A stretch of DNA of 46,367 nt from Emcibacteraceae bacterium (GTDB lineage Bacteria; Pseudomonadota; Alphaproteobacteria; Sphingomonadales; Emcibacteraceae). The notes beneath the pieces were generated by a model, which saw only the letters and a list, made by a program, of their open reading frames with translations, made no database searches and had not been told where the DNA came from. Positions 2,350-29,973 of this stretch are shown in pieces (positions within the stretch are counted from its first letter, which is position 1; each line of letters opens with the position of its first letter). The position numbers and the translations under genes are program-made. Location: assembly GCA_021774795.1 (NCBI GenBank), contig JAJFIR010000003.1:1-46367 (forward strand). Direction: 5' to 3'.

Positions 2350-4728
2350 GTGTTCACTTTTAAAAAGGGACTGGCAATTTTTCTGATTACCCTGATGGGG
2401 GTCTGCTCTGCCTATGCCCAGGAAAAGGATTGGACTTTCTGGCAGCAAAAATTTTTCCAAACAAAAGCGAACGAGGCCACCGATCACGAAACGGCGCATT
2501 TCTGGAGAACTCAAGAACCTCATATTAAAGAGATAAAGATCACAGCGACTTTGCCCGACTACCCTTGGGTTCAAATCTCTAGTTACAGAAACCGTTCAGC
2601 GGAACGTTGCACTACCTGTCACGATGGCATATCTGCAGTCAGCACATCACATCCACCGGAGTTTGGTTGCACTGTCTGTCATGGCGGCGAACCCGAATCC
2701 GTTGACAAAGACCAAGCCCACGCCACATTGATATATGACCCCAAAGCTGGGACGAGGAAGCGCAATCCATCCAGCCTCAGTGTGGTTGAACAATCCTGCG
2801 GGCAGCTTTATTGTCACTCTGGCCATGCAGAGGAGGACCGCAACCATATTCAGCGCTTAAACAAATCCATGATGAATACTATGGCTGGAGTGATTTCAGG
2901 TTTACGCTATCAATGGGCCGGACAAACTAAAAAGACCGCACGCTATGCAACAGAAGATGTTGCAGATAAAGACGGCAATACACCGCATGAATGGGGGGCT
3001 CTAGAAAAGCTGGACAAACTGCCCTACTTTTCTTATTTGGATATCCCGAAATCAGATAAAAAATCCATTCACGCAATTTCAAAGCATCCCGGTGACCGCC
3101 TTTTACGCCAACAATGCTTTCAATGCCATATAGATTCCCCACCGCCGCCGGGACAATATCGATCTCAAGGTTGCGCAGCATGTCATTTTACTTATTCGAA
3201 CACAGGCCTCTATGAAGGCGATGACCCGACTATCTCCAAAACACAAACCGGTCATGCAAAATTCCATAAGCTTCAGGCCTTGCCAAAACGTACAGTGTGT
3301 GTGCAATGCCATCAAGGGTTTTCGTTGCAGCCATTGGGCAATGACCCTTCTCCAGTCATAGAAAAGGATGCAACCAAACTCGATAATGAAGAAATAAATG
3401 ACGAGCAAAATATCGACCTGCCACTCCAAAAAGAAGTATTTATCGAAGAGGGGCTAGAGAGAGTTGAAATACTTACAGAAGAAAAAGTGCTGGATGATGA
3501 AAACGAGCCGCTCCTACAAGACCTTGAAGAGAGCCCTGAAAAAGTCGCCTTGCCAAGCGAAGAGGAAGAACCCATAAAAGAAGCTCCACTATTTGCGGGT
3601 CAGGGAAATGTTCAGGTCGATGTTCATACTGCTCGTGGAATGGATTGTATCGACTGCCACACGCAAAACGATATCATGGGAGATGGCAACCTGTATTCCA
3701 AACAACATCAAGCTGTGGAAATCCGTTGCGAAACCTGTCATGGTGATGACAATAGCTATCCTCTGGTATCTCAAGTTACCGACCCAAAAGACACGGTCAT
3801 TCGACTCAGTAAAAACTACGAGGGCGAACCTAATTCTGTCGGAGACTCGATGGCTGTTTCCGAACGAAAAAGACGAATGGCAAATGTAAAAGTTCAAAAT
3901 GGAAAAATGGTTACCCTTGGCAAACGTAGTGGTCGTGTTTATGATATCCCTTTGGTTCGAGATGCAGAGTCCCATTTTATCCCACAGCACCGATCGCGTT
4001 TGGAATGCACCGCCTGTCATTCTCAATGGGTGGTTCGATGTCCAGGTTGCCATGTCTCAATGAAATTAGGACAAGACAAGTTAGATTTGAAGATTGCACC
4101 ACCTATGCAAGTCCAGCAACCGGCACTGATGATAGGGCCTCGTGGAAAAGTTGCACCAATGCTTGCTCAACCCGAAAGGCATTTTTCACTGTTAGATGAA
4201 AAGGGGAATCCCGTACCAGCATTGGGGCCTGTAGGACGACACCATGGGGAATACCGAGAGTGGCCTTTTACCAATCCTCACAACACGTCGGGGGCGAACC
4301 TTGCTTATTCGTTGAACCCTCATTCCACAGGCACAAAAGTTCGTTCCTGCGAAAGTTGCCATTTGTCTCCCAAAACTTTAGGATTAGGAGAAGGCGACTT
4401 GAGAATTGGTGCAAATAATACCGGTAAAAATGATTCCTTATTTCCGCTGAACCATTCCGATAAACGGATCAAGGCATCAAAGTTTGACCCCGAAGCAAAA
4501 GTCTCAATGCGGGGAGAAATTCTTGCAGGAAGTCATCAATTCAAGGCTAGGCCTTTTAACCAAAAAGAAATAATAAGAATATTGAAAGTGGGTAATTGCA
4601 TTCCATGCCACGATCAATATGACGACCCTATTTACCAGAATATTAAAAAAAGCTATGCCTTCGAAGGCACAATGAGACACCGTAAATTGCGCGAAAAAAT
4701 ATTAAACCTAGAGCAAACACAACCGTGA
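2350..4728 (+). CDS. Dodecahaem c-type cytochrome (792 aa)
   Basis: A periplasmic or surface multihaem cytochrome. The N-terminus is a Sec signal (FKKGLAIFLITLMGVCSAYA, cut before QEKD). There are eleven CXXCH sites, with first Cys at residues 87, 107, 256, 275, 317, 433, 460, 553, 564, 667 and 750. One CX4CH site (CGQLYCH, residue 150) makes twelve predicted covalent haems. Residues about 330-416 form a strongly acidic, Cys-free linker dividing a six-haem N-terminal part from a six-haem C-terminal part. The haem order matches the next gene, with two extra haems (564 and 750), so the two are paralogues. The start is a GTG with no obvious Shine-Dalgarno, chosen for the signal peptide. It overlaps the next gene by four bases (GTGA). 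The electron donor and acceptor are unknown; no catalytic haem motif can be assigned by eye. Confidence 0.9.
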   Translation: MFTFKKGLAIFLITLMGVCSAYAQEKDWTFWQQKFFQTKANEATDHETAHFWRTQEPHIKEIKITATLPDYPWVQISSYRNRSAERCTTCHDGISAVSTSHPPEFGCTVCHGGEPESVDKDQAHATLIYDPKAGTRKRNPSSLSVVEQSCGQLYCHSGHAEEDRNHIQRLNKSMMNTMAGVISGLRYQWAGQTKKTARYATEDVADKDGNTPHEWGALEKLDKLPYFSYLDIPKSDKKSIHAISKHPGDRLLRQQCFQCHIDSPPPPGQYRSQGCAACHFTYSNTGLYEGDDPTISKTQTGHAKFHKLQALPKRTVCVQCHQGFSLQPLGNDPSPVIEKDATKLDNEEINDEQNIDLPLQKEVFIEEGLERVEILTEEKVLDDENEPLLQDLEESPEKVALPSEEEEPIKEAPLFAGQGNVQVDVHTARGMDCIDCHTQNDIMGDGNLYSKQHQAVEIRCETCHGDDNSYPLVSQVTDPKDTVIRLSKNYEGEPNSVGDSMAVSERKRRMANVKVQNGKMVTLGKRSGRVYDIPLVRDAESHFIPQHRSRLECTACHSQWVVRCPGCHVSMKLGQDKLDLKIAPPMQVQQPALMIGPRGKVAPMLAQPERHFSLLDEKGNPVPALGPVGRHHGEYREWPFTNPHNTSGANLAYSLNPHSTGTKVRSCESCHLSPKTLGLGEGDLRIGANNTGKNDSLFPLNHSDKRIKASKFDPEAKVSMRGEILAGSHQFKARPFNQKEIIRILKVGNCIPCHDQYDDPIYQNIKKSYAFEGTMRHRKLREKILNLEQTQP

Positions 4729-7463
4729 ATAAATTGTTTCGAATTTTTTTATCGCTGGTCTTTATAATTGGACTCTGCCTCGGCAGTTTTCTCACCTATT
4801 CCTCGGGCCAGGATACAAACGATTTCTCAGATTTTTTTGATGGAAAGAAAAATGATGAATCGATTGCCGCCCCGTCTGAAAAAGATCATTCAGGGATACT
4901 GGATTTTCTTCTAAAACCAGGGTCCGAATCCAAAGATATTCAAGAAACAGAAATCGTCCCCAGATCCGGAAAAACATTACACACCAAAGAAATGGTTGAA
5001 CTGCCGGCTTCATCGCCCAAGACTCAAATCGATGCTTCCGATTTTGAGGACCCTTTTTATCGAGTCAGAGGACTCCAGGGGAATTCAGAGAAAGTCTTGC
5101 AACCGGGAACAACATTAGGTGGGGTGCAGTTTCAAACGTATGGAGATACCAACAAGTTCATTGAAAAGTTCTATAAGGAATCTAATTTTTCACTCGAAGA
5201 TGTATATGGAAAAATAGAATACCTTGAAAGACGCGGTGGCTGTTATACCTGCCATCAAGGGATAGAAAGGATCAGCAATAACCACCGTTTTTCTTGCGTT
5301 CGCTGTCATGGTGGTAACAGGCGATCCAGTTCGTTACCCAATGCCCATAAAGGACTTGTTTCCAATCCGTCCTCAGCAAAAAATGCTCCCCGATTCTGCG
5401 GAAAATGTCATGGAGACCATGTTCGCAAAGTCGAACGATCGCTTATGTCGACAGCTAAAAGAATGGTCAATATCACCCGCTATGCTTGGGGTGCGCAGCC
5501 TCAGGATGAACTTCCATTTTCATTATATCCAGATGATGACGAACAGGCTCTGCCTAGTGCAGCATCGGGTCATCCGGTAGATGGGTTTCTTAGGGCAAAA
5601 TGCCTGCGCTGTCATATTGACTCGGAAAGTCCTCATCGCCCGGGAGATTATAGGTCATCGGGTTGCTCTTCCTGTCACATGATTTACTCGAACGATGGCA
5701 TCTCATTGTCACACGACCGGGCAATACAAAAACTGCAAAATCAAAGTGGCAAACAAAACCGCTTTTCTAGAAAATTTTCCGAAAACTCTTTGAACAATCC
5801 GCGCGGCTATCCGTTGCTACATAAATTCACCGTTGCTGTTCCCAGTTTGCAGTGCGAGCACTGTCATAACAATAATGGAGTAGGGCAAGAGTTCGAAGGG
5901 CTATTTGCAAAACCCTCACGCCCCAAGGAAACACCCGAACAGATCAACGCAGAGAAACCCGTTCTGTATGGAAAAGAGCACGAGTTTTTAGTTCCTGATA
6001 TTCATCGTGAAAAAGGCATGCATTGCATCGACTGTCATATTGGCGATGAAATGAAACCCGAAGCAGAGCCAGACCAACTTCATTCTGGAGTGCAGATTCG
6101 TTGTGTCGATTGCCACGGCACCCAGGAAAAACTGCCTGAAGGATTACTTTTACTCGAGTCCGACCCGAACACAAAAAAAATGATCGCGAATGCCAACCTT
6201 AACCCCAACCTTAAGAAAAGAGTTCGCGCGGGAGATAAGGTTTTAGTTAATTCAAGTGGCTCCCCTATGTTGCATGTCAAACGGGTTAAGAAAAAATGGG
6301 TTTTAGTTTCAAAGGTCTCCGGTAAGAAACACAACATCCCTTTACTCAAAAATATCAAGCCTTCCATCGCGCACCAGATTCCAAAACATATGCAGGAAAT
6401 GGAATGCGCCACCTGCCATGCACGTTGGGCGGCAACAGACTGGGGCATGCACGTTATACGCGAAAGAAGTTTTAACCCTGAAAAATGGAGAAGCTGGAAC
6501 CTTTCAGATCCTTCCCTGCAATATTTAATGTCAAACTCTTCCAATGAAAAAACAGGGGTGTTCGATTGGCCGACTGCCAAATCACTGCCGCAAAAAATTG
6601 AAGCCAACATATTAGATGAGTACTGGTGGACCGTGTTCTCCGATGCAGGATGGTCCGACATGGTGATGGGTAAAAATTCGCGTGGGAAATATGCCATTCT
6701 GAAGCCCCGCTATCAATACTTCATCACTGAGCCATCCGGGCCATTGAGTCTTCCTTTGAAGCGAGCAGAACCTCCCTTAACGCTTGACGATTCCCCCGGC
6801 CTGATCTGGACGGATTATTCACCACATACGATTCGTAAAACGGTACGCTCCTGTGAGAGTTGCCATCAAAACTCTTTATCTGCAGGACTTGGGGATACCT
6901 TGAAAAAATCAATTCAAGATGCCGGGCAATTTTTCTCAGAATTAAAGCAAAATAATCAGGTGAATCAGGACTTTCAGGTCAAGCAAGGTATAGACCCAAA
7001 TGGTCAGGCATTACAGACTTTCTTTCCGGGAGACAAATCGCGTTTTCTCAACAGCGAGGAAATTACTGCTTTGCAAGAAACCTCAAACCGCTACCGGGCA
7101 TTTCGTTCTCTTAATTTACGAGAGTTGAATTTTTCCAGACTATTGAGTCGCAAAGAGTTTCCCTATGATGTTCGGCATCGGATTCGCGAAAAAAATATGG
7201 GGCAACCGCAGCCTCGCGAAGACCTTTTCTACAATGCAGAAAAAAACCAGTTTGTTGAAATTGAAAAACCAAAAGAGACTCCAAAACTTTCTGAGGAATT
7301 CACACCTGAACTGCCGCAAGAGTCAGAGGAAGACAATGAAACGATGAAGCCCGATAACAAAGAGGACGGAATCATTGAGTTTCTCTACGATATTTTTCAG
7401 AAAAACAATGAGGCTCCAGCCAGCGAACCCCTACCAGCACCGGGCGAAGCTACCCCATTATGA
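4725..7463 (+). CDS. Decahaem c-type cytochrome (912 aa)
   Basis: Paralogue of the upstream 12-haem protein. It has an N-terminal hydrophobic signal or anchor (residues 4-26), then about 140 residues of Ser/Asp/Glu-rich, poorly ordered sequence. Ten CXXCH sites follow, with first Cys at residues 173, 191, 225, 293, 314, 377, 434, 460, 561 and 710, and the protein ends in an acidic, Pro-rich tail after about residue 825. Shared blocks with the neighbour include GCSSCHMIYSN/GCAACHFTYSN, CIDCH followed 26-27 residues later by C(V/E)xCHG, and CESCH near the end. The start overlaps the previous stop by four bases and its own stop overlaps the next start by four bases, so translation is coupled. 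The likely role is electron transfer in or across the periplasm or outer membrane. The long disordered ends suggest tethering to partners. The exact family is not recognised. Confidence 0.9.
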   Translation: MNKLFRIFLSLVFIIGLCLGSFLTYSSGQDTNDFSDFFDGKKNDESIAAPSEKDHSGILDFLLKPGSESKDIQETEIVPRSGKTLHTKEMVELPASSPKTQIDASDFEDPFYRVRGLQGNSEKVLQPGTTLGGVQFQTYGDTNKFIEKFYKESNFSLEDVYGKIEYLERRGGCYTCHQGIERISNNHRFSCVRCHGGNRRSSSLPNAHKGLVSNPSSAKNAPRFCGKCHGDHVRKVERSLMSTAKRMVNITRYAWGAQPQDELPFSLYPDDDEQALPSAASGHPVDGFLRAKCLRCHIDSESPHRPGDYRSSGCSSCHMIYSNDGISLSHDRAIQKLQNQSGKQNRFSRKFSENSLNNPRGYPLLHKFTVAVPSLQCEHCHNNNGVGQEFEGLFAKPSRPKETPEQINAEKPVLYGKEHEFLVPDIHREKGMHCIDCHIGDEMKPEAEPDQLHSGVQIRCVDCHGTQEKLPEGLLLLESDPNTKKMIANANLNPNLKKRVRAGDKVLVNSSGSPMLHVKRVKKKWVLVSKVSGKKHNIPLLKNIKPSIAHQIPKHMQEMECATCHARWAATDWGMHVIRERSFNPEKWRSWNLSDPSLQYLMSNSSNEKTGVFDWPTAKSLPQKIEANILDEYWWTVFSDAGWSDMVMGKNSRGKYAILKPRYQYFITEPSGPLSLPLKRAEPPLTLDDSPGLIWTDYSPHTIRKTVRSCESCHQNSLSAGLGDTLKKSIQDAGQFFSELKQNNQVNQDFQVKQGIDPNGQALQTFFPGDKSRFLNSEEITALQETSNRYRAFRSLNLRELNFSRLLSRKEFPYDVRHRIREKNMGQPQPREDLFYNAEKNQFVEIEKPKETPKLSEEFTPELPQESEEDNETMKPDNKEDGIIEFLYDIFQKNNEAPASEPLPAPGEATPL

Positions 7464-8119
7464 AAAAATTTCTTTACCTTCTAATGGGTGGATGGCTTCT
7501 TTGCAGCCCAATGCTTTCCCACGCTTCTTTAATTCAGGAAAAAAAATGTTCCGAATGCCATCGTCTGTCCAAAGATGGAACTGAAAAAAGTGGGCCGGAT
7601 TTGTTCTACGCAGGAAACAAATTTCAAGCTTCTTGGTTGGAGCAATATCTTCAAAACCCTGTGACCATTAGAAGTACAGGGGGCACAAGAGACCCCGGTT
7701 TCTTAAAAGGCGCACCAGAGAGCAGTCAGAAACATCTTGAGCTTTCTAAAAAGGATGCAAGGCAAATTACTCAGGAGTTGATGTCAATAAAGCTACTTGA
7801 TCTGCCGGAAGAGGTCGATCGCCTCAAGCCCTTAACAAAAGGAAAAAAGGCAAAAATAAAATACGAGTTCGAACGTACGTTCAGTTGTATTTCCTGCCAC
7901 CAGAGTTTAAACCTGGCTGGAAAAGTTCGCGGTGGAGTTTCCGGCCCCTCACTCGTCAATGCGGGAAACCGTTTGCAAGCGCGTTGGGTTGCGAGCTGGC
8001 TCAAGAACCCCAAACTGTTCTCAGATCAAAGCCGTATGCCTATTTACAGGATGGAAGATGAGGCACGTTTGCGGCTCACACAATTCATTGCGACGTTGAA
8101 GAATGAAAACAAACGCTGA
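7460..8119 (+). CDS. Dihaem c-type cytochrome
   Basis: A 219-residue secreted protein. Signal peptide residues 1-22 end in SHA, and there are two class-I-like cytochrome c domains with CSECH (Cys30) and CISCH (Cys143). The domains are an internal duplication. Each haem site is followed by a GP-(D/S)-L-x-x-AGN-(K/R)-(F/L)-Q-A-x-W-(L/V) block and a short NP motif; the second ends with a Met-containing MPIYRM segment that could supply the sixth ligand. The start ATGA overlaps the stop of the decahaem gene. Its small size and mono/dihaem fold suggest a soluble carrier between the inner membrane and the large cytochromes; that direction of electron flow is inference. Confidence 0.88.
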   Translation: MKKFLYLLMGGWLLCSPMLSHASLIQEKKCSECHRLSKDGTEKSGPDLFYAGNKFQASWLEQYLQNPVTIRSTGGTRDPGFLKGAPESSQKHLELSKKDARQITQELMSIKLLDLPEEVDRLKPLTKGKKAKIKYEFERTFSCISCHQSLNLAGKVRGGVSGPSLVNAGNRLQARWVASWLKNPKLFSDQSRMPIYRMEDEARLRLTQFIATLKNENKR

Positions 8120-8122
8120 CCT

Positions 8123-8581
8123 ATGAAAAAAAATTCACCGACATTAATTTTGCAGTATTGTGTTTTTCTGATTTCCGTAAGCATAATAGGCTGTAGCGAA
8201 AAATCAGCCGAAGAGCCCAGACCTCCATTGAAAGCAGAGTCACATTCACCTGCCCTTATGGAAGAGGCCATTCCCGAGCCTGTTGTAGTGACTGAAAAAA
8301 CACGCGAAACCTACCAATGGTATTGTGCGCAATGTCACGGCATTCAGGGTAAAGGCGATGGCATCAATGCCAAGTTTTTAACCGTGCCACCCCGGAACCA
8401 CACCAAAGCCAGTTATCTGGAAACCCGAACCGATGAGCAGTTCTTTGAAGCGATCAAATTTGGCGGTCTATCCGTCGGCCGGGCACCCTGCATGCCAGCA
8501 TGGGGGAACACTCTGAGCGATTCGACGATCCATGAACTGGTACGCTATATTCGTGAATTGTGTCAATGCGAAGCTCTATAG
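8123..8581 (+). CDS. Monohaem cytochrome c lipoprotein
   Basis: A 152-residue protein with a lipoprotein signal peptide (SIIGC, lipidated Cys24), a short flexible linker and one class-I cytochrome c domain. The haem site is CAQCHG (Cys68) followed by GKGDG; the probable Met ligand is in the PCMPAWG segment near the end. Ser at the position after the lipid Cys does not indicate inner-membrane retention, so outer-membrane anchoring is possible. It begins three bases after the dihaem gene stops and closes the operon; a 80-bp gap follows before the next gene. It probably presents electrons to, or takes them from, the multihaem proteins at a membrane surface. Confidence 0.9.
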   Translation: MKKNSPTLILQYCVFLISVSIIGCSEKSAEEPRPPLKAESHSPALMEEAIPEPVVVTEKTRETYQWYCAQCHGIQGKGDGINAKFLTVPPRNHTKASYLETRTDEQFFEAIKFGGLSVGRAPCMPAWGNTLSDSTIHELVRYIRELCQCEAL

Positions 8582-9954: not shown

Positions 9955-10581
9955 ATGAAAGTAATAACCACAGAGTTTGTAACGGGGGCGGTTTCGGCGA
10001 AGCAATATCCCAAAGAATCTTATCCGGAGTTTGCATTTGTCGGGCGATCGAATGTCGGCAAGTCTTCGCTGATCCGCTCACTTTTGAATCGCAAAAAACT
10101 GGTTCGCATCAGTTCGACACCTGGAAAAACAAGAGAGATCAATTTTTTCCGAATCAATGACACACTGATGTTTGCGGACCTTCCCGGCTATGGGTTTGCA
10201 CGGGTCACCCCGGCCTTGCAAAAAAAGTGGAAAACAATGATCGAAGAATATCTGACTAAGCGAGATCCTTTGTTGGCAATCGTATTCATCGTTGATATCC
10301 GCCGCAAACCTACAGAACTCGATTTGACGCTCAAAGAATGGCTCGAAGACCTGGGCAGGCCTTATATTCTGGTCATTACTAAATCGGATAAATTGTCAGG
10401 GACAGAACGTAGCAAGCAAACTAAAATAATCAAAGCCGCCTTTATGGGGGATCAGACCCTAGCAACGGTGACCTATTCAAGTAAAAATCATTTAGGAAGA
10501 AAAGAACTCTGGAGTGAGATACAAAAATTAATCTCAGAAAAAAAGAGGAAGGAATTAATCTTTTCAGAGACGCCCGGCTAA
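9955..10581 (+). CDS. engB: Ribosome biogenesis GTPase EngB (YihA/YsxC)
   Basis: A 208-residue GTPase of the TrmE-Era-EngA-EngB-Septin group. Visible G-motifs are G1 GRSNVGKSS (residues 30-38), a G2-region TPGKTREINFF, G3 DLPGYGFA and G4 TKSDKL. The length equals that of typical EngB. In other bacteria it is needed for assembly of the large ribosomal subunit. It starts nine bases after the DUF1015 gene. The last four bases overlap the end of the convergent PCP_red gene (the two stops interlock at 10578-10581), so there is no room for a terminator between them. Confidence 0.96.
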   Translation: MKVITTEFVTGAVSAKQYPKESYPEFAFVGRSNVGKSSLIRSLLNRKKLVRISSTPGKTREINFFRINDTLMFADLPGYGFARVTPALQKKWKTMIEEYLTKRDPLLAIVFIVDIRRKPTELDLTLKEWLEDLGRPYILVITKSDKLSGTERSKQTKIIKAAFMGDQTLATVTYSSKNHLGRKELWSEIQKLISEKKRKELIFSETPG

Positions 10582-11408
10582 AAAGTAAATCGGTATTGTT
10601 CGAACAATTCCATCGTTACAACATCTTTACCCGCCTTGGTCACTTCCTGTTCAATACGTTTCACCGCCATATTGCGGATAAAAGGAATGGGAATGCGAGA
10701 TACCTTGTCCAGTGCATCGTCTTCCCATTTCATAGAAACTTCGACTGGCGCGTCTTTATCTTTATCGATCTGTTCATCCTGCTTAAGGTCTTCTTCGGTC
10801 ACCTCCATGCCCATCGCTTCTTTGGCGGAAGATGGCATAATATTGGTGAACACTTCATCAATGATATCGGGAGTGATTATTTTGTCACCCCTTTCTCTGG
10901 CCCGCCCTTCGATGGTTTGCTTGGCCATACCGAGGACAAAAGGTGGCACCTTTTCCATTTTTTCCTTGGCTTCTTTGCTCCATGGAACTCCTGAAGTGGG
11001 TGTCACTTCCATATAACTTTTGAACTTTTCTACAATGTCGTCTTTTTTTTCTGTACGCATCGAGAGAAAATCTTCTATCTCTTCAATCACTTCTACCTTG
11101 CGTGGACTTTCCCGCATTTTTTCCTTGGCCACATCAAAGGCATCCATACTTAATTCTTCAAATCCAAAACCTTTGACTCGTTTGGACACCAGCATCATGG
11201 ACTCGTTTCTGATTTCCGTCAAAAAATCAGACGTGACAATTTTAAAACCGCGTTTTACGCAACGTTGCACCATGAGCTTGCGAATTCCCGGACGAACAAA
11301 TTCCGGCGCATGTTTTACACGTTCCCAAGCCTCTTCGGCCCACACCACACCATTTTCTTTAGCGTAAGGGTGGTCGGCATCTGTTATCTTTATTTCTTGA
11401 GTTCCCAT
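10578..11408 (-). CDS. Triple PCP_red-domain protein
   Basis: A 276-residue soluble protein made of three copies of the small PCP_red domain, otherwise found at the C-terminus of the light-independent protochlorophyllide reductase subunit BchB. The copies start at VVWAEEAWERV (about residue 21), VPWSKEAKEKM (about 138) and MKWEDDALDKV (about 226). Each continues with a P-x-FV/I-R/L-x-x-A/I core and a (K/D)-(I/V)-(I/V)-T-x-x-(F/I/L) strand. A 50-60 residue charged linker separates copies one and two. No Cys ligands for an iron-sulfur cluster and no other bch genes are present, so a role in chlorophyll synthesis is unlikely. The domain is found in many non-phototrophs with unknown function. The start ATG is followed by GTQEIKI. 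Confidence 0.85.
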   Translation of the reverse strand: MGTQEIKITDADHPYAKENGVVWAEEAWERVKHAPEFVRPGIRKLMVQRCVKRGFKIVTSDFLTEIRNESMMLVSKRVKGFGFEELSMDAFDVAKEKMRESPRKVEVIEEIEDFLSMRTEKKDDIVEKFKSYMEVTPTSGVPWSKEAKEKMEKVPPFVLGMAKQTIEGRARERGDKIITPDIIDEVFTNIMPSSAKEAMGMEVTEEDLKQDEQIDKDKDAPVEVSMKWEDDALDKVSRIPIPFIRNMAVKRIEQEVTKAGKDVVTMELFEQYRFTF

Positions 11409-11606: not shown

Positions 11607-14600
11607 ATGCAACGTTCGCCTATAGTCTACTTTTTGTTTTTTGTATCTGGTATTACGGCCCTGATTTATGAAATAGTATGGACCCGAATGCTCACCCTTG
11701 TTTTCGGGCACACCGTTTTTTCAGTCTCTGTGGTACTCGCCGCTTTCATGGCTGGCTTGGGGCTGGGCAGTTATCTCTTTGGTTATGCTGCTGACAGGTT
11801 ATCCTCTTCATCGTCCGCACTTAAAGTCTACGGTTGGATAGAAGTTTTGATATTTGCGAGCGGTGCTCTACTTTCACTGTTATTTGCTAATTTCGCGGAT
11901 GTTTATTCCCTGTTCCACAGTGTTATTCCAGAATCGCCACCGCTGCAAAACCTGCTGAAGGTTCTTTTTTCCTTCACTCTGATGCTGGTGCCGACAACAT
12001 TTATGGGTGCAACTCTTCCCCTTATCAGCAAATATTGCGTTACCGATGACAAGCGCATAGGAACACAAATAAGCCTGCTTTATGCACTCAACACCTTGGG
12101 CGCGGCCTGCGGTTGCTTGCTGACAGGATTCTTTTTGATGGGAACGTTCGGTGTGCTGGAAACCGTATTGACGGCTGCTGTTGGCAACCTCTTAATCGGT
12201 ATTGGCGCGTTAAATGTCTATAAGGAAAACGGCGGTTCTTTAAAATTCAATTTACCTGAAATTAAATTCCCAAAAATGGATTGGAGTTCCGAGCAAAAAT
12301 TTTGGATGGGAATCAGTTTCGTCTGTGGTTTTACCGCACTCGCCTATGAAGTTTTGTGGACGCGGCTACTGGTATTTAGCATTGCTAGCACGGTTTACTC
12401 GTTTAGCATGATGCTGGCTGTTTTTTTACTAGGAATATTCTTCGGAAGCCTTTTCCTCATTCCCCTGCTTCCAAAGATCAAGAACTTGCGCACCATGCTC
12501 ATCGCCTTACAAGGAGGGGTGGGGGTTTATGTGATCGGCTCTATTTACGGACTGGAATCCATTCTCTCTCCACCTTGGAATGCGTACAACCTAGGGAACC
12601 CCGCCGCAGCCTTCTGGGTCTATTTTAAAGACTCAGCGGCTCTCATGCTGGTTCCTACATTGCTCCTGGGGATGTGTTTCCCATTGCTCATTCAGTTGAT
12701 ATCAAAGAAACACGAAAATATCGGGCAAGCGACGGGGCAAGTTTATGCATCGAATACAGTAGGCGCTATCTTTGGATCTCTTTTTTCCGGGTTTCTTTTC
12801 CTGCCCAATTTCGGAAGTCAGACCAGTCTTACCCTTCTTGCAACGATCAATTTGTTCACCATGATTCTTTTGTTCCGCACCGGGGACTATCTGACGCCCG
12901 CCATCAGAAAAGGAATGACTGTCGTGTTCGCGTCGCTGATTCTTTTTATTAATATGGCCATCCCTAATGACTTGTTGAATCCCTTTTTCATGCGTGATAG
13001 TGCTGGCAAACGAAACCTTAATAAACTGATGTTTTTTGAAGAAGGATTGTCCGATACCGTTGCCGTCTTTAAAGAGGAATATGGGATGCTCGATCCATCG
13101 GCGAAGCGATTGATCACCAACGGCATTTCCATGTCAGCTTCTAATATGACTGCCACTCGCTACATGAAGTTGCTTGCTCATGTCCCCATCCTGCTGGTCG
13201 ATAAACCCGATGACATTCTTGTTGTCTGCTTTGGTACGGGTCAGACCACAGGTGCAGCCGGACTACACCCTCGGGTAAAAACCGTCGATAGTGTGGAGTT
13301 ATCTGCCAGCGTTATCAATGCAGGAAAAATGTTCGCCGACCAGAACCACAATGTTCTGGAAAATCCCAAAGTAAATTTCGTGATTCAGGATGGACGCAAC
13401 CATTTGTTAACGACTCATAAACGTTACGATGTCATCACATCCGAACCGCCACCGCCACGCACAGCATTCACCGTCAATCTATACACAAGAGAATATTATG
13501 AGTTGCAGAAAAGCAAATTGAAACCTGGAGGTATAGCGACACAATGGATTCCTCTGCATAGCCAGGGCCCAAAAGAAGTGGCCATGCACTTTAAGACGTT
13601 TCAGTCGGTTTTTCCCTATACGATGGGTTGGCTTTCTGTGGCCAATGAAATGCTCATCATCGGTTCCAATCAACCTATTGAAATTGATTTTAATAAGCTG
13701 AATGAGCGCGTGCAGGAACCTGAAATTAAAAAAGCGTTAGGGGATATTGAAATCCCAAACATCTATTCTTTCCTAAGCAACATTTGGCTACTCAACGAGC
13801 AAGTGCAAAAGCTTGGAGAAGGCTTCCCTCTTATTACAGACAACCGTCCGGCTATCGAGTTTTATCTCGACATGGGAAAGGTGATTGGTATTCCGGGGCA
13901 AGAAAGATATGTGTTCAACCGCGCAAGGTTTGACGATGTCACGAAACAAATTTCAAATCTGCCCGAGTCAGACCGGCAAAAGCTGGAACCTTATTATAAT
14001 GCAATGGACCTTTATCAGCGCGGAGTTATGTATGGAAATCGCGGTCAACTATTGCAAGCTATGACGTTGGTAGATGATGACGACCTTTTCCGTTACCACT
14101 TGCAGGCAGATCGTAAACAAATGCAACGCTTGACTCAACTCATTGAAGAAGAACCTGATAACTTACAGTATCTGCTCAATCTAGCCCACAGTTTTTACCA
14201 GATTGGCAATTATGAGCAAAGTATGGAGATCCTGCAGTTGGTTCTTGAAAAGAGCCCCAACTTGAGTTTCGCCAACCTTTATATGGGCCACAACTTGCTG
14301 GAAATGGGGAAAAAGGAAGAAGCTTTAACCTTCTTTAAAAACACCGCCAAAAATGATCCCCAACAAATGGGAGCGGTGATGCGAGAAATTGGGTTGGTGA
14401 GCTTATTAAAGGAGATAGACAAGAACCCCGAAGATCCGGTTCTCCAACGATCTCTTGCAGAGTATTATAATTTGAAAAAGGAATACTTGAAATCTCTGGA
14501 ATATTCACTTCCACTGCTACAGCAAGATCAGATGAACTTGAAGATATTGCAGATCATTGTTTACAGTTATCGCGGACTGGGAGAAGCCAAAGAGGTTCTA

Positions 14601-28752: not shown

Positions 28753-29973
28753 ATGCCTTTTATAAAGCCGCATCGAGCAGGCTGGACGCTCTTGTTCTTT
28801 TTGGCGATCTTAGCGTTGTTTCGTTTTCCAGTAAAAGTTTTTGCTCACGAAATTTCAGGTTTTGCAGCAGGTGAGGCACGGCTCTTCCCAAACGAAGCTC
28901 TGTTTCCAGGTCAGAACGATCAATCCGCTTCTTTTGCTTTGCAACCCGAGTATTACCATGAGTTCGAAAGCGGTAGCAGTTTCACCTTCGTTCCGTTTTT
29001 GCGAGTCGATAGCGGCGATCAGGAGCGCACCCATTTTGATATACGCGAACTCACCTATCTTTGGTTGCAAGAGGACTATGAATTAAGGGTTGGGGTTCGA
29101 AAAGTTTTTTGGGGGACCACCGAGATACTCCATCTGGTAGATATTATCAACCAGAATGATCAGGTGGAAAACATCGATACCGAGGACAAGCTGGGTCAAC
29201 CTATGGTAAACGTTTCCTTTTATCGCGACTGGGGCACCATAGACGTTTTCATGATGCCCTTCTTCCGTGAACGTACCTTTCAAGGAACAGGAGGAAGGTT
29301 GCGCTTTGCAACCCCCATTGATGATGACCGCGTTCAATATGAAAGTTCCGCAGAAGAATGGCATACTGATTGGGCCATGCGGTATTCGCATACCTTTGGC
29401 GACCTCGACATCGGTCTCTCTCAATTTATAGGAACCAATCGAGAGCCGACCCTGCTTAATGGCACCGACTCCAACGGCAGCGCCATAAAAATTCCCAGAT
29501 ACGAACAGATCAAACAAACTAGCATCGATGCTTCCTATGTGGTCGGCGAATGGCTGTGGAAACTCGAATCCCTTTATCGCACCGGTCAAGGCAACGAAAA
29601 TTATTTTGCATGGACCGGAGGATTCGAATACACCTTCACCGGAGTTTTTGATTCCGCAATGGATTTTGGAGTAGTCGGTGAATGGATGTACGACACTAGA
29701 GAGGAGAGAGCTACGAATGCCTTCGAAAATGATATCGCCACGGGACTGCGCCTAGCAGTCAACGATGCCGCCAGCACCGAAGCGCTATTTGGATGGGTGC
29801 AAGACTTAGACACATCTGCACGTTTTCTATTTCTGGAGGCCAGTAGAAGATTCGGTGATAACTGGTTACTGACCGCCGAGCTACGCGCGTTTATCCACCA
29901 GCCCATGGAAGACCTCTTCTTCGACCTCCGCGATGACGAAATCATGCAAATGGAACTCGCTTATTACTTCTAG
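28753..29973 (+). CDS. Outer-membrane beta-barrel protein of the RND/LolA-like cassette
   Basis: A 406-residue protein with a signal peptide (hydrophobic residues 10-28, cut near VFAHE). Alternating amphipathic strands run along the mature part, for example TFVPFLRVDSG, ELRVGVRKVFWG, TIDVFMMPFFRE and WLLTAELRAF. It ends in LAYYF, a terminal aromatic residue typical of BAM-inserted barrels. It begins two bases after the LolA-like gene, so the three genes form one operon. No porin family is recognised with certainty; it resembles the barrel proteins that accompany RND plus LolA-like pairs in environmental bacteria. Function inferred: outer-membrane exit or acceptor for the exported compound. 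Confidence 0.8.
   Translation: MPFIKPHRAGWTLLFFLAILALFRFPVKVFAHEISGFAAGEARLFPNEALFPGQNDQSASFALQPEYYHEFESGSSFTFVPFLRVDSGDQERTHFDIRELTYLWLQEDYELRVGVRKVFWGTTEILHLVDIINQNDQVENIDTEDKLGQPMVNVSFYRDWGTIDVFMMPFFRERTFQGTGGRLRFATPIDDDRVQYESSAEEWHTDWAMRYSHTFGDLDIGLSQFIGTNREPTLLNGTDSNGSAIKIPRYEQIKQTSIDASYVVGEWLWKLESLYRTGQGNENYFAWTGGFEYTFTGVFDSAMDFGVVGEWMYDTREERATNAFENDIATGLRLAVNDAASTEALFGWVQDLDTSARFLFLEASRRFGDNWLLTAELRAFIHQPMEDLFFDLRDDEIMQMELAYYF

Follow-up and report, generated by a model that had tools for sequence, protein, structure and literature searches.

Layout of the four-gene cytochrome operon

The window analyzed here is a 46,367-nucleotide stretch (positions 1 to 46,367 of the forward strand of contig JAJFIR010000003.1) from assembly GCA_021774795.1, deposited as an Emcibacteraceae bacterium. 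Close to its 5′ end lie four genes for exported cytochromes, which we call MHC1, MHC2, DHC, and LipC:

2350-4728, + strand: MHC1, exported 12-haem cytochrome, ExtM/CbcM-like, 792 amino acids (aa); low-confidence acidic linker at ~323-420
4725-7463, + strand: MHC2, exported 10-haem cytochrome, ExtN/CbcN-like partner, 912 aa
7460-8119, + strand: DHC, dihaem cytochrome, exported, 219 aa; two class I domains
8123-8581, + strand: LipC, lipoprotein cytochrome of class I with a single haem, 152 aa

An earlier reading of the window, made from the sequence alone (the sequence-only reading), had described four coupled genes at 2350-8581 with 25 haems, and both points held. The MHC1/MHC2 and MHC2/DHC junctions overlap by 4 bases each, DHC and LipC are 3 bases apart, and the open reading frame (ORF) coordinates agree. 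MHC1 carries 12 haem motifs (11 CXXCH and one CX4CH, CGQLYCH at residue 150), MHC2 carries 10, DHC 2, and LipC 1. When the two large proteins were shuffled 2,000 times each, chance CXXCH motifs averaged 0.03 for MHC1 and 0.02 for MHC2, with maxima of 2 and 1. Compared with its counterpart at a related locus (L007), each of the four genes had a ratio of nonsynonymous to synonymous substitution rates (dN/dS) between 0.08 and 0.15.

The small exported dihaem carrier and the lipid-anchored cytochrome that had also been proposed were likewise recovered. DHC is exported and has two class I domains, the second of which contains a conserved RMP Met. LipC has a lipobox, IIGC (by eye), and a conserved CMP Met followed by A/S-W. 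Three further LipC cysteines, one before the Met ligand and two in a C-terminal CxC, are conserved in 7 of 7 aligned sequences.

MHC1 and MHC2 resemble the ExtM-ExtN pair

In Geobacter, GSU2935 (12 haems) and GSU2934 (10 haems) are encoded with a Rieske protein and a cytochrome b, and together they were listed as a bc complex conserved across six Geobacter genomes (PMC2825233). CbcMNOPQR is the name used for this bc-type complex (PMC10989804), and the ext cluster, extHIJKLMNOPQS, was named for selenite and tellurite reduction (PMC5877670). The window operon shares with this cluster the tandem of a 12-haem and a 10-haem cytochrome, ExtM-ExtN or CbcM-CbcN (PMC5877670, PMC2825233).

The NCBIfam ExtM model (NF040943) matched MHC1 with 301 bits (E value of 1.3e-89) and MHC2 with 176 bits (E value of 7.3e-52), in both cases below its curated cutoff of 800 bits; Geotalea ExtM scored 1,073 bits for comparison. 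We therefore call MHC1 ExtM-like and not ExtM. Against the ExtN model (NF040967), MHC2 scored 62 bits and did not reach the curated cutoff of 200. We also observed that a 10-haem ExtN protein scored 710 bits with NF040968, which is named ExtO, b-type cytochrome iron-sulfur subunit, and 703 bits with the ExtN model NF040967; one of these two names looks wrong.

In an alignment of 34 sequences (14 from Nitrospinota and 20 others), all 12 haem sites of MHC1 were collinear, 11 of them invariant and one (667-671) present in ≥90% of the sequences. The third motif of MHC1 is the CX4CH, and one relative, L010, is one CXXCH short (10). MHC1 was 25 to 35% identical to the 20 rows from outside Nitrospinota, and by its sequence it is a divergent relative of Geobacter ExtM/CbcM. 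A profile comparison of MHC1 with MHC2 (E value of 2.4e-85) agrees with the earlier view that the two large proteins are paralogous. MHC2 aligned with ExtM over 527 columns (E value of 2.5e-52) and with ExtN over 375 columns (hhalign; E value of 6.8e-32), with long N- and C-terminal extensions beyond the aligned regions, and like ExtN it lacks the tenth ExtM motif (the VVQCYGCH stretch) and the last ExtM motif. In a tree of 48 proteins, one branch (87/96) separated 32 M-type rows from 16 N-type rows, and the N protein of Desulfobacteraceae CSMAG_1163 (L057) grouped with the Nitrospinota N proteins (97/90). MHC2 is encoded directly after the M gene, has 10 haem motifs, and is N-type in the tree with moderate support. 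From the ExtM and ExtN profile matches, the collinear haem sites, and the M/N split, MHC1-MHC2 is best read as a divergent ExtM-ExtN pair.

Four Desulfobacterales-titled loci (L019, L023, L028, and L030) encode an M-N fusion of 985 to 999 aa with 19 haems, in which the M part is 62 to 66% and the N part 61 to 65% identical to stand-alone ExtM and ExtN; M and N therefore belong together.

Neither MHC1 nor MHC2 had a significant phmmer match among PDB sequences, no chain named as an OmcS or OmcZ nanowire appeared among the PDB sequence matches of the large proteins, and the Pfam MtrC-MtrF family scored 19.8 bits with MHC1 (cutoff, 30), MHC2 not being among the matches listed. The sequence-only reading had found no named conduit to match and had proposed an undescribed system. 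That proposal does not stand, since both large proteins match NCBIfam ExtM and MHC2 aligns with ExtN; an undescribed family was rejected on the ExtM matches, the collinear haem sites, the ExtM and ExtN profile alignments, and the tree. Homology to a characterized conduit, which would have spoken against novelty, was found in part: the cluster that holds ExtM and ExtN has been studied genetically, but extI and extHIJKL, not extM or extN, are the genes whose phenotypes are given in the available published text.

The operon is conserved and widespread in Nitrospinota

Genome contigs were scanned, and the best 80 of 101 relatives were taken as loci, 13 of them titled as Nitrospinota or a member of that phylum and 67 other. 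The sequence-only reading had left conservation of the gene order to such a comparison, and the order is kept: MHC1-MHC2-DHC-LipC recurs in 10 of the 13 Nitrospinota loci (42 to 91% identity). In the remaining three, the contigs of L013 and L015 stop inside the operon, and MHC2 of L005 stops early (790 aa), ~0.6 kb from the contig end. The 4-base overlap of MHC1 and MHC2 is present in 9 of the 12 loci with both genes; L015, L016, and L017 have gaps of 7 to 8 bases.

Among 77 Nitrospinota genomes, MHC1 was matched in 58, strongly (E value of ≤1.4e-88) in 56 and weakly in G109 and G132. Several of the 77 are small (1.0 to 2 Mb), and absences of MHC1 or LipC are soft. Of the 56 genomes that match MHC1 strongly, 51 also have LipC (E value of ≤1e-25); so do 7 of the remaining 21, 4 of them with a strong match. 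As read from the listed rows, LipC of the 51 genomes lies on the MHC1 contig in 41 (close by in 40 and ~0.5 Mb apart in G122), shares a contig with an MHC2-type match in 7, and is elsewhere in 3. DHC was matched at E values of ≤4e-51 in 7 of 7 genomes tried. MHC1 and LipC are co-inherited in Nitrospinota, and the four-gene operon is real, conserved, and widespread in this phylum.

Rieske and cytochrome b genes are absent from the Nitrospinota loci

In the window and the 13 Nitrospinota loci, we found no tblastn match to Rieske protein or cytochrome b and no Rieske motif, within a reach of 2.3 kb upstream in the window and 10 kb on each side in several loci; the controls L032 and L057 were positive. 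The Rieske and cytochrome b genes of a CbcMNOPQR cluster are thus missing from all of these loci. Compared with the Geobacter ExtM-ExtN cluster, the Nitrospinota operon lacks ExtO/P (Rieske and cytochrome b), ExtI, ExtKL, and the 4-haem ExtS and carries two class I cytochromes in their place; at 912 aa, MHC2 has roughly double the length of ExtN (418 aa).

Elsewhere the M gene commonly keeps this company. Rieske and cytochrome b genes both lie within 4 kb of it in 41 of the 67 non-Nitrospinota loci; among the other 26, 6 have one of the two and 10 have neither but show <4 kb on a side, and the last 10 are considered below. L057 has the same 12- plus 10-haem tandem order, with a CX4CH as the third M motif, but unlike the window operon it is preceded by genes for a rhodanese, a Rieske protein, and a cytochrome b, and no DHC- or LipC-like gene is among its listed neighbors. 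In Bacteroidota and kin, a cytochrome b-ExtM fusion, identified in L076 by domain search, stands beside a Rieske gene; it shares the 12-haem M domain with CX4CH, but at the fusion loci M is covalently joined to cytochrome b and no downstream protein with ≥8 haems is listed. L080 encodes such a fusion by BLAST, and L061, L072, L077, and L082 probably do, the evidence being either protein length alone or a match to cytochrome b; these proteins, from Bacteroidota and others, are ~900 to 950 aa long. Several multihaem genes with ≤12 haem sites have also been described in Nitrospinaceae metagenome-assembled genomes from the Oslofjord tunnel, where their role is called unclear (PMC11995701); if they correspond to the present operon, its kinship with ExtM/ExtN would correct one point of that account.

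Flanking genes and origin of the contig

The conserved gene order in Nitrospinota is NHL-SnoaL-Hpt-MHC1-MHC2-DHC-LipC, and in the window the upstream genes are as follows:

22-1266, + strand: NHL beta-propeller protein, 3′ part, truncated by the window start
1341-1844, + strand: SnoaL-like exported protein, syntenic upstream gene
1986-2294, + strand: Hpt phosphotransfer-domain protein, separated from the downstream MHC1 gene by 55 bases; synteny kept at most Nitrospinota loci

The NHL protein of relatives has 724 to 743 aa and a signal peptide (by eye). The SnoaL-like start was set by eye to fit 167-aa relatives (the mechanical ORF starts at 1215). The Hpt gene, which was not detected in L010, is possibly cotranscribed with the operon. 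Ten loci have LipC; in 9 of them it is followed by DUF1015 and EngB genes, and in L016 a TonB receptor gene stands there. Further into the window, positions 10578-11408 (- strand) encode a protein with three PCP_red (protochlorophyllide-reductase domain) stretches, on a contig with no sign of phototrophy, and positions 28753-29973 encode a 406-aa protein with no Pfam match, downstream of MMPL and LolA-like genes.

The window contig probably comes from a member of the Nitrospinaceae and contaminates the assembly of another lineage, because the assembly has two EngB affinities and MHC1 is missing (E value of ≤0.001) from 12 of 12 same-genus genomes. EngB of the window is 96 to 97% identical to EngB of L006 and L007; a second EngB, on contig C49, is 43% identical to the window EngB and 82 to 88% identical to that of the four same-genus genomes compared. 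No 16S match was found in the assembly, and G+C content does not separate the window contig from it.

A proposed periplasmic electron relay

Homology, haem count, gene order, co-inheritance, and the local absence of Rieske and cytochrome b genes are shown by the comparisons above. We propose that the products of the four genes form a relay for electrons in the periplasm, with an ExtM/ExtN-type pair at its core, in which electrons would pass from the multihaem proteins through class I cytochromes into the pool of cytochrome c; we give this reading a probability of about 0.5. In most relatives, a Rieske/cytochrome b module is encoded alongside the pair and is in some cases fused to it, which would connect the pair to the quinol pool; the Nitrospinota loci do not encode this module, and the two class I cytochromes would occupy its place in the operon. 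Together, MHC1 and MHC2 may store and conduct electrons through 22 haems. Because the potentials of His/Met haems are usually higher than those of bis-His multihaem proteins, the simplest direction suggested by the sequences is MHC1/2 first, then DHC, then LipC. Electrons would leave MHC1/2 downhill via DHC and then the His/Met-type LipC, which may hand them to a cytochrome c pool feeding a terminal oxidase. The donor may be a reduced compound in the periplasm or outside the cell, a molybdoenzyme, for example nitrite oxidoreductase (NXR), or a cytochrome b encoded elsewhere.

Several results weigh against this proposal. The ExtM and ExtN scores are far under the curated cutoffs, so function may differ; the M/N split has a bootstrap of only 87%, and the L057 N protein and the ExtN rows sit on long branches. 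The MHC1 model (mean predicted local distance difference test score [pLDDT] of 69; predicted template modeling score of 0.67) had no Foldseek fold match at an E value of ≤0.001, and the AlphaFold model of MHC2, built from a 12-row alignment, was unusable (pLDDT of 37). MHC1 was not found in 19 of the 77 Nitrospinota genomes. Ten non-Nitrospinota loci with ≥4 kb on both sides (L024, L042, L056, L059, L060, L068, L073, L075, L079, and L081) also show neither Rieske nor cytochrome b, and uncoupling from these partners is therefore not peculiar to Nitrospinota. Finally, these genomes commonly encode a cytochrome b at a different locus, so a link to quinone is possible.

This last point bears on the idea of a split quinol:cytochrome c oxidoreductase, in which the pair would work with a cytochrome b encoded elsewhere, such as a conserved 337-aa unsplit cytochrome b. 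Most MHC1 relatives do pair with a cytochrome b, and the 337-aa protein is present in 62 of the 77 Nitrospinota genomes, in 50 of 56 with strong MHC1 and 12 of 21 without (Fisher P value of 0.003, uncorrected for kinship or completeness). That association is weak, with 12 genomes having the cytochrome b without strong MHC1 and 6 the reverse, and may reflect class membership and completeness only. The 337-aa protein is moreover ~21 to 37% identical to ExtP or to the cytochrome b of L057, L071, and L076, no better than to PetB, and we consider this arrangement unlikely. The 337-aa gene itself (L111, 1420-2433; relatives at L105, L106, L110, L112, L113, L115, and L116) has no Rieske neighbor; beside it are genes for a thioredoxin resembling TlpA (by eye) and for a CYCYCKKNHNHK-type protein. 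For N. gracilis, PMC3578206 mentions a second unsplit cytochrome b.

The sequence-only reading had favored a complete conduit to the outer membrane or cell surface. A self-contained conduit was rejected, because no barrel is conserved; a version in which MHC1 and MHC2 cross the outer membrane with a barrel encoded elsewhere and LipC serves as the surface cytochrome is doubtful. In its favor, LipC is a lipoprotein (lipobox by eye), and in cable bacteria the ExtM/ExtN homologues and candidate barrels are encoded apart from extKL-like genes (PMC11976967). Conduits of the Ext, Pcc, and Mtr kinds have a barrel in the cluster; no barrel family was found in the operon or in the 29 window proteins scanned with Pfam, the 406-aa and a 435-aa protein matching nothing; the scan left out a 1061-aa ORF at 11607 and EngB, and a distant barrel could exist. 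No barrel gene is conserved in the immediate flanks of relatives, the sole one near a relative being the TonB receptor of L016, at the position of DUF1015 elsewhere. Known surface cytochromes are multihaem, unlike the single-haem LipC.

A wire for a periplasmic molybdoenzyme, possibly NXR in Nitrospinota, with the cytochromes linking NXR and oxidase, seems quite unlikely. It would fit L024 (3872-9659), where an ExtM-like 12-haem gene has genes for an Fe-S subunit and a molybdoenzyme of the PhsA kind before it and a gene for a nitrate-reductase-delta-type chaperone after it, but this is a single locus. Genome G112 has two matches of NXR or nitrate reductase (NAR) size, and the same contig carries MHC1, DHC, and LipC side by side; G070 and G071, however, have NXR/NAR-size matches (frames of 1,170 to 1,179 aa) with neither MHC1 nor LipC. 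NXR is assigned here from size, matches to the TIGR03479 marker being fragmentary and the counts being those among the matches listed. No nxr gene was seen adjoining the operon in the loci with gene lists, and low-potential multihaem proteins look unsuited to the nitrite couple at +0.42 V (value from PMC10839748).

Last, a catalytic periplasmic multihaem reductase of selenite, tellurite, or nitrogen or sulfur oxyanions, to which the origin of the ext name (PMC5877670), a weak match of the MHC1 profile to NrfA chains (2.8e-05), and the presence of only 4 invariant and 2 nearly invariant non-motif His for 12 haems across the 34 sequences might point, is very improbable, since the NrfA match appears to span generic CXXCH regions, more His and Met are conserved within Nitrospinota than across all 34 sequences so that all haems could be six-coordinate, and the selenite phenotype in the available text belongs to extI and not extM (PMC5877670).

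Implications for Nitrospinota respiration

Nitrospinota include the most abundant known marine nitrite oxidizers. In the available text of published accounts, their respiratory chains are described without this operon (PMC3578206, PMC8026999, PMC10839748). An ExtM/ExtN-type pair is known; new is the Nitrospinota version without Rieske and cytochrome b and with two class I cytochromes, whose function is predicted from sequence. Our broader suggestion, which we regard as tentative and unlikely, is that Nitrospinota share a phylum-wide second electron-entry route, in which an ExtMN-type 22-haem pair freed from a quinol-linked core would carry electrons from a reduced donor other than nitrite to the cytochrome c-dependent oxidase via two class I cytochromes. 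If the operon is a working electron route, Nitrospinota would possess an electron donor, an acceptor, or a store of electrons that has gone unrecognized, and the ExtMN pair would be able to separate from its bc-type core and connect with different partners.

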